Assembly: GCF_009733535.1 (NCBI RefSeq)
Contig: NZ_ML771899.1
Coordinates: forward strand, 372,001-436,000
Direction: 5' to 3'
DNA length: 64,000 nt
Origin: Sphingobacterium endophyticum
GTDB taxonomy: Bacteria; Bacteroidota; Bacteroidia; Sphingobacteriales; Sphingobacteriaceae
Made by a program: the position numbers and the translations under genes. Within the stretch, counting starts at the first letter, position 1. Every line of letters begins with the position of its first letter. Below the pieces are notes generated by a model that had not been told where the DNA came from, searched no databases, and worked only from the letters and a program-made list of their open reading frames with translations. Shown here piece after piece: positions 45,689 to 50,280 of this stretch.

Positions 45689-48373
45689 CTATTTTCCAGT
45701 TTTTAAGAATTTATATACCATCCCTAACATAAAATATTGTCTTAAGGTTAATGTCTGGGAGTAATTCGTAGAGTTTCCATAGCTGCTGAAATTATTGGAA
45801 ACATTTTGATTAAGGATATCAAAAGCTGATAACTTTAATTCACCTTTTCCTAAAATTGGATAATATACTGATGCATTTAAAATGTTTAGATTTCTTCTGT
45901 CACCGTTAATCCCAACAACTTGATTTTTTACGGTAAATGAACTTTCTATTCTAAATTTCTTGATGTTATTTAATAGTAATGTCGCACCTAAGCTTGTATT
46001 CGTGTTGTTTATGTTTTTAAAATTTTCGGAGTCGTACTTAAAATTAGTATTATTAATTCCCATTGCGAACGATGGGGTAAATGTGAAAGCACTTTTATAG
46101 CTGAAGGTTACTGTATTATTCCAATTTCCATAAAATTGAGTGGCAAGATTTTCTTCATTATTAGACATGCTGTAATTTTGGTTAGCGTATACGTATGAAT
46201 AAGTAGAAAAACTTAAGTTCCAATTTTTATTTTGAAGGAATGTTTTTGAAAATGAAATATTTGTGCCGTACGAATCAGTTGGTCCAGCTTGATAAGATTG
46301 GGAAGTTCCAGTGCTGTTTTCAGTATTGTAGGTGTTTGCATATCCAACGCTATTGTCTTTAGTTGAATAATTTGCAGAAATAAAGAAATTGATTTTAGAT
46401 TTGTTGAAAAACTTATTATACCTAATACTATATCTTTCCTCAATAGTGTTATCAAAAAAGGGACTTGCTAATTGTATTCGAGTGGGGTATAAATCTGAAT
46501 TAACAGAAACTATACTGTAGAAATTAGGAGCTGAAAAAGACTTATAATAATTTAGATTTAGGTTTTTATAGGTAATACTTAAATCGGGTAGCCAATAAGA
46601 ATTTTCATTTTTCAGGTTCTCACGTTTTTGATAATAATCAAAGTTATTAGATTGACTTGCATACTTAATTCCTATTGAAATAGGAAGGTCTTTAATTAAA
46701 CTAATATTCCATTTTGTTCCAGCATAGAATAGATTGTTTTTTAATCCTTTATTATTAGCAACATCATTCCTATTGGAGAATTCATCAGCATTAATCTTGT
46801 TAAGTATATCTTCTGTTTCCCATTGATTACCATTTATTTGTTGTGCATAGAGATCGAAATTTATTTTTTTATTAATAGGGACTTGTAAGTTAATTTTATG
46901 TTCAAGTACCTGTGATAGATTATTAGAATTTTCTATTTGATGCTGAAGGATTGTACTATCATTAAAAAGAAAATAACGGCTATTAGAATTGTTATTACTT
47001 ATTCCTGATCCATTATTATTTCTTAAATTATGGTTAAAAGATAATAGCCATTTATTTTTAAACTTCTTTTCGATATAAAATGAATGGTAATAATTGAATC
47101 TTTTGTTGTTATTTGAACTATTACTTTCAGAACGTAAAACATAATCTGCTTCATTTCTCCAGCTTTCGGAATTGCCCATATAGTCAGAAGTATGTTTTGA
47201 TTGTGTTAAATTTGTTGAAAATGTAAATTGTGATGTAGTATCAATATTATATCTAATAAATGCTTTCAATTCGTGATTAAAATTCGAATTTTCATTTATG
47301 CTATTTCCCTTGGATTGCTCTAAAATTTCATTATAAAAGCTATTGCCTGTCCGACTGTTATCACTATAGAAATCGTGCTGGCCATAATTATACATTAAAT
47401 TAGTTTTTAATTTTTTTGCAATATCATAGTTTACATTTACTCCAGCAGAAATCTGATTCATAAGTCCATTAGAACTCCAATAGGAATAACTATTGTTTTC
47501 CATTCTATTCATACCTCCATGTTCATTAAGTTCTGAATAGTCAAATCCTTGCCTATTTATATTATTTGCAAAACCGATAAAACTAACTTGTAAAGTGTCA
47601 CGGAAGGTATTTATTAATGCTCCTGATTCATAGCGGTCTCTTGTAGCCGCACCTCCATAAAATTTTCCAAAATTGGCCTTTAGAAATTCTTTCTTCATTT
47701 TCAAGTTTATTACAATGGGCAATTCTGAATCATCTAAAATTTCTCTTTTAGATTCACCTTTATCCTTAATGACCTGCACAATATCTATTAATGATGCATC
47801 TAAATTACGAGTTGCTATTTTAAGATCCTGAGCGAAGAAATCCTTGTTATTAACTCTGACGCCACTCACTTCTCGTCCTTGATAATATATGGATCCATCT
47901 GCATTCACTTGTAGACCGGGTAAAATCCTAATTAATTCCTCAACAGTAGCGTTTGGCCTAGTTTTGAAATAATCTGCTTTATATTCTAAAGTATCACCAA
48001 TTAAACGGATAGGAGGAACAGCTGTAATAGATATTTCTTCAATTGTATTACCTTTCAAAATGATGCTGTCCATCTTATATTTTTCGCCTGGTTTTAAATT
48101 TAATTTTCTTTGGAAGGGTGAACTATTTACATGGGAAACAAAAAATAAAATTTCTTTATTTGCTGGTATTTTTACCAAATCAAATTCACCTTTTTCGTTT
48201 GTAAGGGCGTAAGTTATCACAATTGAGTCTTTTTCTGAAACAACTGAAACTGTCGCTTTTTCCAACGGTTTCAATTCAGAATCAAATACATGTCCTAGGA
48301 TAGAAGAATTGTTTTGAGCGAAACTTAAATTCACTATTAAAATAAAGATTGATAGAAGATAAAATCTTATCAT
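45689..48373 (-). CDS. Outer-membrane beta-barrel protein with CarboxypepD_reg-like and plug domains
   Basis: 894 residues with a signal peptide (ending FAQ). Order: carboxypeptidase-regulatory-like domain (about 22-110), a plug-like domain (about 130-230, LPGLQVNADGSIYYQGREVSGVRVN), and a large Asn/Ser-rich beta barrel to the C-terminus (MLGMVYKFLKTGK). This is the layout of the Bacteroidota outer membrane beta-barrel family related to TonB-dependent receptors. I see no TonB box. It may import or secrete an unknown substrate; no SusD partner is adjacent. Composition is AT-rich and Asn-rich compared with the housekeeping genes. Confidence 0.82.
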   Translation of the reverse strand: MIRFYLLSIFILIVNLSFAQNNSSILGHVFDSELKPLEKATVSVVSEKDSIVITYALTNEKGEFDLVKIPANKEILFFVSHVNSSPFQRKLNLKPGEKYKMDSIILKGNTIEEISITAVPPIRLIGDTLEYKADYFKTRPNATVEELIRILPGLQVNADGSIYYQGREVSGVRVNNKDFFAQDLKIATRNLDASLIDIVQVIKDKGESKREILDDSELPIVINLKMKKEFLKANFGKFYGGAATRDRYESGALINTFRDTLQVSFIGFANNINRQGFDYSELNEHGGMNRMENNSYSYWSSNGLMNQISAGVNVNYDIAKKLKTNLMYNYGQHDFYSDNSRTGNSFYNEILEQSKGNSINENSNFNHELKAFIRYNIDTTSQFTFSTNLTQSKHTSDYMGNSESWRNEADYVLRSESNSSNNNKRFNYYHSFYIEKKFKNKWLLSFNHNLRNNNGSGISNNNSNSRYFLFNDSTILQHQIENSNNLSQVLEHKINLQVPINKKINFDLYAQQINGNQWETEDILNKINADEFSNRNDVANNKGLKNNLFYAGTKWNISLIKDLPISIGIKYASQSNNFDYYQKRENLKNENSYWLPDLSITYKNLNLNYYKSFSAPNFYSIVSVNSDLYPTRIQLASPFFDNTIEERYSIRYNKFFNKSKINFFISANYSTKDNSVGYANTYNTENSTGTSQSYQAGPTDSYGTNISFSKTFLQNKNWNLSFSTYSYVYANQNYSMSNNEENLATQFYGNWNNTVTFSYKSAFTFTPSFAMGINNTNFKYDSENFKNINNTNTSLGATLLLNNIKKFRIESSFTVKNQVVGINGDRRNLNILNASVYYPILGKGELKLSAFDILNQNVSNNFSSYGNSTNYSQTLTLRQYFMLGMVYKFLKTGK

Positions 48374-48605
48374 TTAGGAATTGGTGTTTGGTTATTCTAA
48401 AATAATATAATTTTTTGGCAATAATTACCCCGAAAATTGATTTAACATAATTTAGCATTAACCATGTTTTTTTAAATTTTTCTTTTCTATTAAAGGTCAG
48501 GGGGGAGGTTTTCCCTCAGAATAAGGAAGATTATGAATGAAAAAATAAATGCAGAATTCAACGAAGTAGGTGTGGCATATTTTCAAATTCCGGGGTTAAC
48601 ATGTC
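48374..48605. other. Intergenic stretch upstream of the outer-membrane protein and hairpin array
   Basis: AT-rich bases upstream of the 45689-48373 gene (read from the minus strand). A 93-codon frame begins at 48533 and runs through the hairpin array; I do not accept it as a gene (see rejected list). I see no RNA gene. Confidence 0.5.
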
Positions 48606-48753
48606 ACTCCTACGGAGTTGTTTTTGGAATATATACTTATTCCAGACCCTTCGGGTCTGGCTATAGATATTTCATCCCGATGGGATTTCAAGTTCATCCC
48701 GATGGGATTTCAAGTTCATCCAAAAAGGAATATCATGTTCATCCTGATAGGAT
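48606..48753. repeat. Array of short hairpins (REP-like interspersed repeat)
   Basis: Within about 150 bases I can see: ACTCC-TAC-GGAGT (48606-48618), GGAATA-TATACT-TATTCC (48626-48643), CCAGACCC-TTC-GGGTCTGG (48642-48660), then two exact tandem copies of a 22-base unit (48671-48692 and 48693-48714), each holding ATCCC-GAT-GGGAT, a broken third start at 48715, and a degenerate copy ATCCT-GAT-AGGAT (48741-48753). In the last copy both sides of the stem have changed (C to T and G to A), so pairing is kept. The 22-base unit is not a multiple of three, so the array is not protein-coding. Confidence 0.72.
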
Positions 48754-48823
48754 TTTTACTTTAAGACAATATATTTCCAGATTACGGAGGAATATGATCT
48801 TTAAAAGGGGGTGATGTGATATA

Positions 48824-48863
48824 TTGTTATTGAGGGGAAATTCTTTAAAAAAACGTATTTTTG
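48824..48863 (+). promoter_or_regulatory. Promoter of rlmD, probable leaderless start
   Basis: TTG at 48824-48826 or 48830-48832 and TATTTTTG (48856-48863), an exact -7 match, 7 bases before the ATG at 48871. Confidence 0.5.
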
Positions 48864-48870
48864 CGGAATT

Positions 48871-50280
48871 ATGGGAAGAAGAATACCTCAGGATAAGAAA
48901 TTTATTTCAGACGTTGAAATAGTTGATATTGCCGAAGAAGGCAAGGGCGTTGCCAAGCACGATAATTTAGTTTTGTTTATTGAGCGAGCGGTGCCTGGAG
49001 ATGTGTTGGACGTGGAGTTGGTTCGAAAGAAAAAGAATTTTGCTGAGGGGAAGATTGCTGCGGTAAAAAAGGGTTCGGAGTATAGAATTGATCCATTTTG
49101 TTCTCATTTCGGGGTGTGTGGTGGTTGTAAATGGCAGCACATGACCTATGACTCTCAATTGAAGTTCAAAGAGCAATATGTTGGGAATGCATTATCAAGA
49201 ATTGGTAAAGTTGATGTTTCTGGGATGGAACCAATATTGGGTTCCGTTCAGACCGAATATTATAGAAATAAATTAGAATATACATTTTCCAATAAGCGTT
49301 GGTTAACGAGCCTTGATGAGGTGGAGCCCACAGATTCGATGGACGCTCTCGGTTTCCATGTTCCTGGAAGGTTTGATAAGATCTTAACGATAGATCATTG
49401 TTTCCTTCAGCAAGATCCTTCAAACGATTTGCGGAATAGCATTTTTGAATTTGCAAAAGAAAATTTCATGTCATTTTATGACTTGAGAGAACATGAAGGT
49501 TGTTTGCGAAACTTGATTATCAGAACTTCTTCCACCGGAGAGCTGATGGTCATTGTGGTGTTTGCCTACCCAGAAGAAGGACAAGTGGACATGTTGATGT
49601 CATTTATCAAAGAAAAATTTCCTGAAATAACTTCTTTATTATATATCATAAATCAGAAACGTAATGATACCATTTTTGATCAAGACATACATGTTTATGC
49701 TGGTCGAGATTTTATTTATGAGGAGATGGAAGGGTTGAAGTTTAAGGTTGGTCCAAAATCATTTTATCAAACCAACTCAAGACAGGCTTATGAATTATAT
49801 AAAATTACAAGGGAATTTGCGGATTTAAAGGGAGATGAGTTAGTTTATGACCTGTATACCGGTGCTGGAACAATTGCAAATTTTGTTGCGAGATCAGCTA
49901 AGGAGGTTATTGGCGTTGAATATGTTCCAACAGCAATAGAGGATGCGAAAATTAATTCAGCAACAAATGGTATTGACAATACGAAGTTTTATGCAGGCGA
50001 TATGAAAGATGTACTTACATCTGATTTCATAAACGAACATGGCAAACCAGATGTTGTGATTACAGATCCACCGAGAGCCGGCATGCATCCAGATGTTGTT
50101 GATCGCATTTTAGAGATGGAGAGTGAAAAAGTGGTTTATGTCAGTTGTAATGCTGCAACTCAGGCACGTGATTTGGAGAGTTTAACAAGTAAGTATGAGG
50201 TTGTTCGAATAAAGCCAGTTGATATGTTTCCACATACACAACATGTTGAGAATGTAGTATTATTAAAATTAAAGAAATAA
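48871..50280 (+). CDS. rlmD: 23S rRNA (uracil(1939)-C5)-methyltransferase
   Basis: 469 residues. Methylates a conserved uracil in 23S rRNA with SAM. N-terminal TRAM domain (about 1-70), the 4Fe-4S motif CSHFGVCGGCKW (about 78-89) with a fourth Cys in DHCFLQQ, the SAM-binding YDLYTGAGTIANF, and the catalytic Cys in DPPRAGMHPD...VYVSCNAATQARDL. It has normal family length. The next gene starts with no gap after its stop codon, which indicates translational coupling. Confidence 0.92.
   Translation: MGRRIPQDKKFISDVEIVDIAEEGKGVAKHDNLVLFIERAVPGDVLDVELVRKKKNFAEGKIAAVKKGSEYRIDPFCSHFGVCGGCKWQHMTYDSQLKFKEQYVGNALSRIGKVDVSGMEPILGSVQTEYYRNKLEYTFSNKRWLTSLDEVEPTDSMDALGFHVPGRFDKILTIDHCFLQQDPSNDLRNSIFEFAKENFMSFYDLREHEGCLRNLIIRTSSTGELMVIVVFAYPEEGQVDMLMSFIKEKFPEITSLLYIINQKRNDTIFDQDIHVYAGRDFIYEEMEGLKFKVGPKSFYQTNSRQAYELYKITREFADLKGDELVYDLYTGAGTIANFVARSAKEVIGVEYVPTAIEDAKINSATNGIDNTKFYAGDMKDVLTSDFINEHGKPDVVITDPPRAGMHPDVVDRILEMESEKVVYVSCNAATQARDLESLTSKYEVVRIKPVDMFPHTQHVENVVLLKLKK

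Follow-up and report, generated by a model that had tools for sequence, protein, structure and literature searches.

The small hairpin array examined here lies in a 64,000-nucleotide stretch of the Sphingobacterium endophyticum genome, hereafter called the window, and is likely to be a small non-autonomous REPIN-like element in a partly decayed state, made of units that belong to a transposase of the subclass 1.2 type. Comparison of related sequences indicates that it belongs to a small, dispersed and probably mobile DNA element, and orphaned REPIN-like elements of the unit-linked transposase clade are the most likely description of the array. The linkage of such units to subclass 1.2-type genes in other genomes suggests what this poorly understood branch of transposases acts on.

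The sequence-only reading of this DNA had described small hairpins with TAC, TTC and GAT loops within about 150 bases, all of which are present, and an exact tandem of a 22-base unit, of which two copies were confirmed. Sequence inspection and alignment within the host genome reveal a larger array, spanning about 48552-48753; the hairpins had been placed correctly and the left arm had been missed, as 48552-48688 aligns at 84% with a doublet element elsewhere in the same genome. Because of this match, the copy in the window is regarded as two arms joined head to head, the second of them truncated. In order, the array comprises a truncated arm in reverse orientation, the head and accessory hairpins, the core GCTATAGATATTTC-ATCCC-GAT-GGGAT and, lastly, short tandem copies (Table 1). 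In the core unit, [T/G]CTAY stands exactly 14 nt before a 5-bp stem with a 3-nt loop, a spacing identical to that found at transposase genes in other genomes, and a scan for [T/G]CTAY-N9-hairpin returned it as the sole unit of its kind in the window. The local 22-nt tandem is probably a secondary amplification. With up to two mismatches, ATCCCGATGGGAT occurs six times in the window (shuffle mean 1.53; six reached in 0 of 100 shuffles), while the 19-nt hairpin pattern, with up to three mismatches, has one match, which is exact (shuffle mean 0.06; at least one match in 6 of 100 shuffles). The compensatory change previously reported for the degenerate unit is real, its innermost C-G pair having become T-A, and represents a single event; the neighboring copy, ATCCAAAAAGGAAT, which had gone unmentioned, has lost most of its pairing and retains, by eye, 3 bp around a 5-nt loop.

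Table 1. Parts of the hairpin array, with positions in the window
Feature	Positions	Strand	Basis or remark
Truncated head of the second (B) arm, degenerate hairpin	48552..48580	-	Own-genome doublet alignment; four-doublet alignment
A-arm head hairpin ACTCC-TAC-GGAGT	48606..48618	+	Read in the sequence
Accessory hairpin CCAGACCC-TTC-GGGTCTGG	48642..48660	+	Present in A arms, absent from B arms
Core unit GCTAT-N9-ATCCC-GAT-GGGAT	48660..48686	+	Motif exactly 14 nt before the 5-bp stem
First ATCCC-GAT-GGGAT hairpin, inside the core unit	48674..48686	+	Read in the sequence
Second ATCCC-GAT-GGGAT hairpin	48696..48708	+	From the exact 22-nt tandem
Degenerate copy ATCCAAAAAGGAAT, pairing mostly lost	48718..48731	+	Read in the sequence
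Degenerate copy ATCCT-GAT-AGGAT	48741..48753	+	Both arms changed, pairing kept

The array sits between two divergent frames (48373-48871), one of 894 aa on the minus strand, which we take to be an outer-membrane receptor, and one of 469 aa on the plus strand, presumably an RlmD/TrmA RNA methyltransferase. A frame of 93 codons (48533-48814) crosses the repeat and is, we infer, an artefact. A position in a divergent intergenic region upstream of the 469-aa gene, together with paired changes in the stems, might point to a transcribed RNA element, such as a regulatory leader, terminator or set of stabilizing hairpins, for example the leader of that downstream gene. However, this explanation is very improbable: a search of Rfam with 48300-49000 returned no family at gathering score (the sole match listed had an E-value of 0.99 and 14.9 bits versus 60), copies of the repeat adjoin a wide variety of genes without a constant orientation, and related units that point outward are found on either side of transposase genes. 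The array is better explained as a substrate in single-stranded DNA than by an RNA function.

The sequence-only reading depended on the existence of further copies in the genome, and a genome search found them. ATCCCGATGGGAT occurs 10 times genome-wide, compared with 0 occurrences of its reversed control. A covariance model built from 24 copies (17 from the host genome and 7 from G265, a genome of the same genus) detected 22 full units in the host genome at E<1e-3, a number that rises to 25 at E<=1, where the E-values are rough and 17 of the matches are the model's own building copies, found by construction. All 20 copies inspected lie clear of ORFs of at least 100 aa, showing that they are extragenic, and the REP-like dispersed family that had been suspected is supported by these three observations. 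Two arm types can be distinguished by the CCAGACCC hairpin, which A arms have and B arms lack; the two types are arranged back to back in three inverted doublets of the host genome (on contigs C6, C14 and C17), in addition to the truncated doublet in the window. Among 250 genomes of the host's order, the exact core was detected in the host genome only (1/250), and a blastn search with the doublet across the genus matched 2 of 93 genomes, the host and G265. A phage search gave no match, and nine stretches of viral contigs matched a pattern, none of which encodes a relative. Other repeats were also observed around the copies. At four loci (L013, L016, L018 and L021) the A arm adjoins a second dispersed sequence, in which AAGAAGAGACAAGGAGAT precedes AGACATAAGA-like tracts, and CTGAGCCTGTCGAAG-type repeats, another dispersed family, lie near the copies at L017, L022, L025 and L275.

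Alignment of the copies for covariation, as proposed earlier, yielded a positive result. In the 24 aligned copies 93.3% of cells are paired, four pairs have changed on both sides (equalled in 3 of 500 shuffles), and none of the 500 shuffles reached the covariation score. The double changes are concentrated mostly in one pair (CG in 14 copies, GC in 8, UA in 1 and unpaired in 1), and since G265 contributes six of the eight GC copies, covariation within the copies reflects few events; one pair of hp1 is unpaired in 15 of the 24 copies. A comparison between genomes adds 46 TTCTAY sites, each with a perfect stem at one common offset, among which 15 different stems occur. The earlier view that the hairpin is under selection is supported by paired changes between copies, and more strongly by the variation of stems between genomes.

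The same core was identified in other lineages. It occurs exactly in 11 GTDB contigs of eight genomes from several phyla, including two Carboxylicivirga genomes and MAGs of Prolixibacteraceae, Draconibacterium, Cyclobacteriaceae, Ignavibacteria, Verrucomicrobia and Acidobacteria, whose contigs are possibly misbinned. Y1_Tnp was present in seven of the eight, the exception being the Prolixibacteraceae MAG, and the Verrucomicrobia MAG holds only a fragment with two stops. Units directly adjoin the transposase gene at L091, L092, L095 and L111, and in related genomes the host's own core lies beside a transposase of this kind at L095 and L280. A total of 60 Y1 loci were fetched, 46 of which encode Y---Q--HH, the other 14 comprising 3 IS200-like, 2 class 2 and 9 unassigned loci. 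In the set L050-L079, 30 of the best PF01797 matches of the order chosen independently of hairpins, a unit was found at 21 of 25 loci with Y---Q--HH; in the set L091-L120, drawn from genomes chosen for holding the core, the corresponding figure was 9 of 21. Altogether, 30 of the 46 Y---Q--HH loci contain 61 units, compared with 0.25 in shuffles, and 16 of these motif-defined loci lack a unit by the same criterion. The null for this count was a mononucleotide shuffle, and a real background of 1.6 Mb was used as well, giving 15 unit-like matches (10 in G161, eight of them in four pairs, 0 in G175, 3 in G158 and 2 in G256).

Within 500 bp of Y---Q--HH genes the mean number of N3 hairpins is 3.07, with two or more at 35 of 46 loci, versus a mean of 1.07 and two or more at 4 of 14 for the fetched loci without Y---Q--HH; 400-kb background samples of four genomes contain 0.21-0.44 N3 hairpins per kb, with at least two in 3-9% of 1-kb windows. 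Distances between neighboring hairpins peak at 47-54 nt (45 of 60 pairs no more than 80 nt apart, against 4 of 21 in the background), and TCTA is found at -14 for 53 of 398 hairpin-strands, where 2.0 would be expected. When TTCTAY sites were taken as the starting point, 46 of 245 had a perfect stem at offset 15, compared with at most three at any other offset from 5 to 30, 1 of 75 at offset 15 for other Y1 loci and 6 of 1485 for the background; two control motifs gave no more than three perfect stems at any offset. The nearest units point outward in 28 of 30 cases within 300 bp of the gene and in 29 of 37 cases without that limit. The loops of the 61 units are TAC (27), GAT (8), GCT (7), TAT (6), TCT (5) and others (8), and this loop bias distinguishes the two strands.

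With regard to the enzymes, the unit-linked proteins read DH[I/L/V]H ... WQ ... Y---Q--HH, and in NCBIfam four of four score above the NF033573 cut-off and four of four below that of NF047646. The portion of PMC6006769 cited here gives DH-u-H, WQ and Y---Q--HH as the signature of TnpA subclass 1.2, to which the unit-linked enzymes were assigned by motifs and not by the profiles of that survey. In searches of open PMC papers, no report of REP-like units for subclass 1.2 was found. A FastTree phylogeny of 87 Y1 proteins, with unit calls made under a laxer G+C limit (2 of 5), contains a 36-member group with units at 31 members, compared with 2 among the remaining 51; the Fisher value of 4.6e-16 overstates the case, because the group has a local support of just 0.47 and was delimited with the labels already in view. 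Among Y---Q--HH proteins outside the group, 1 of 11 has a unit.

Considering that dispersed extragenic palindromes and inverted doublets are REP-like features, the array might instead belong to a canonical REP/BIME family for which a RAYT of class 2 is responsible, either of the GTAG type or of the Bacteroidetes subclass 2.6 (PMC6006769, in the part cited). In addition, G265 holds the repeat family together with one Y1 gene, which is class 2 by motif, and the class-2-like locus L117 has a unit. Nevertheless, we rate this origin as improbable. No GT[AG]G was seen within 0-2 nt 5' of the window hairpins on either strand, as read rather than systematically scanned. The class-2-like loci of the order (30, of which 26 had an ORF found) have a mean of only 0.58 N3 hairpins, two or more at 4 of 26, and 1 of 195 in the TTCTAY test, and several of those printed carry a different repeat. 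A class-2 protein query found nothing in the host genome, although the same query matches 128 of 250 genomes. Subclass 2.6 REPs were the first idea considered, and were dropped after the class-2 control. The array's membership in the canonical GTAG REPs is unsupported because its hairpins have no foot tetranucleotide and the enzymes linked to such units are not class-2 RAYTs but IS200-like proteins with Y---Q--HH. As a separate observation, the repeat in the class-2 gene flanks of L220, L221, L222 and L224, GACTTGTGC / GCGCAAGTC, is perhaps the 'atypical' REP of subclass 2.6.

A REP-associated tyrosine transposase, for which a search had been suggested, was not found in the host genome, but in other genomes Y1 transposases lie beside units of this kind. 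A profile search with Y1_Tnp (PF01797) detected none in the host genome, while the same search matches 141 of 250 genomes of the order; a translated search with a clade protein found none at E<=10, an empty answer that shows little without a positive control. The closest case comes from the same genus: in G180 a doublet whose arms carry GCTATAGATAT and GCTATAGACAT (also given as CTATAGATAT and CTATAGACAT) lies downstream of the transposase gene; its core CTATAGA[T/C]AT equals the core sequences of the host's A and B arms, and its stems are of the GACC type. Of the seven matches of this doublet in G180, three lie elsewhere and span nearly the full length (query 10-180 of 186); it has no blastn match at E<=0.001 in the host genome, G265 or G070. 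No matching gene was found within 1.5 kb of four dispersed G180 loci (L287-L290). Among eight same-genus loci with Y1 matches that were picked and fetched (L277-L284), only three carry convincing units, with four at L277 on both sides of the gene, two at L280 and one at L278; the single match at L279 looks like chance, and L281-L284 have none. At L279 and L281, a second kind of Y---Q--HH protein (MSQSLSK type) was observed, followed downstream by another tandem repeat with TATGCATCGCATTGGGGT. Three plasmid records were also found, and only the Bernardetia sp. Wsw4-3y2 plasmid (NZ_CP147018.1) carries units, its tnpA (WP_338815653.1) having a four-hairpin doublet upstream; the Persicobacter and Streptomyces plasmids are without them.

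Since both the host genome and G265 hold many copies with no cognate gene found, the units might be passive repeats that merely share repeat-rich intergenic niches with the genes and owe their spread to some other element or to host processes. The G265 copy L202, bracketed by inverted GGCAATGTCATTAAGTTAAGG-like sequences that are perhaps the ends of another element, would also be compatible with such a scenario. However, passive spread is unlikely to account for the data, as the fixed 14-nt spacing, the outward orientation and the concentration in one enzyme group would not be expected from it.

The preferred reading, a REPIN-like element of a subclass 1.2-type transposase, can be formulated as a model. 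An intact element has two outward-pointing arms, each with [T/G]CTAY-N9-hairpin. A small HUH Y1 transposase of the IS200-like 'subclass 1.2' kind would recognize the hairpins strand-specifically in single-stranded DNA, such as the lagging-strand template. By cutting and rejoining the nearby DNA it would spread the doublets in trans, with TCTAY possibly serving to guide it or to mark the cleavage site. From the analogy to IS200/IS605 and TnpA_REP, as described in the cited parts of PMC6006769 and PMC8266576, we infer that the enzyme could bind, cut and mobilize the units. The host genome may have lost this enzyme or acquired the repeats without it. On balance, we lean towards the broader view that an IS200-like HUH clade has its own REP-like system in several phyla, in which stems diverge with pairing kept, presumably along with the enzyme, and repeats can outlive the enzyme. 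Such a model offers a proposed substrate for a transposase subclass without one described, with a fixed-distance motif in place of the GTAG foot, and would explain hairpin arrays, and the spurious frames across them, in genomes of this kind. The natural variation, 15 stems with one spacing, provides material for tests of co-evolution between Y1 enzymes and hairpins.

Among known systems, REP, REPIN and BIME sequences with TnpA_REP (RAYT), known mostly from Proteobacteria, are likewise dispersed extragenic palindromes with inverted doublets, and in some genomes a Y1 gene is likewise flanked by palindromes (PMC6006769 and PMC8266576, in the parts cited). In contrast, the array unit has TCTAY 14 nt before a 5-bp stem with a 3-nt loop and no GT[AG]G foot, and its linked enzyme is IS200-like with Y---Q--HH; a canonical REP or REPIN system would also be expected to have a cognate class-2 RAYT in the genome, whereas no Y1 gene was found in the host. 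IS200/IS605 elements have non-autonomous derivatives. These elements resemble the present case in having a single Y1 transposase with hairpins at both flanks, according to the same portions of PMC6006769 and PMC8266576. Unlike IS200/IS605 and their derivatives, the array units are inverted and outward-pointing in dispersed doublets, and no sign of whole-gene transposition was seen.

The GTAG- and CGTC-tagged palindromes (PMC3733652, as excerpted) are also small, occur in many phyla and in some cases lie beside RAYT genes, but their terminal tag is not seen at the ends of the array hairpins. Subclass 2.6 of Bacteroidetes shares the host group and has repeats, with 'atypical secondary structures', beside the Y1 gene and elsewhere in the genome, but its enzyme motifs differ (NH-u-H, Y-H-NP; all from the cited part of PMC6006769) and the sampled class-2 flanks are without the array unit. 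The enzyme itself finds its counterpart in TnpA Y1 subclass 1.2, with the same motifs, about 150 aa and occurrence in Bacteroidota; in the parts of this 2018 survey cited here (PMC6006769), the table lists no REP for subclass 1.2 and the text describes it as generally without the typical IS200 terminal structures, whereas in the present analysis units accompany 30 of 46 loci.
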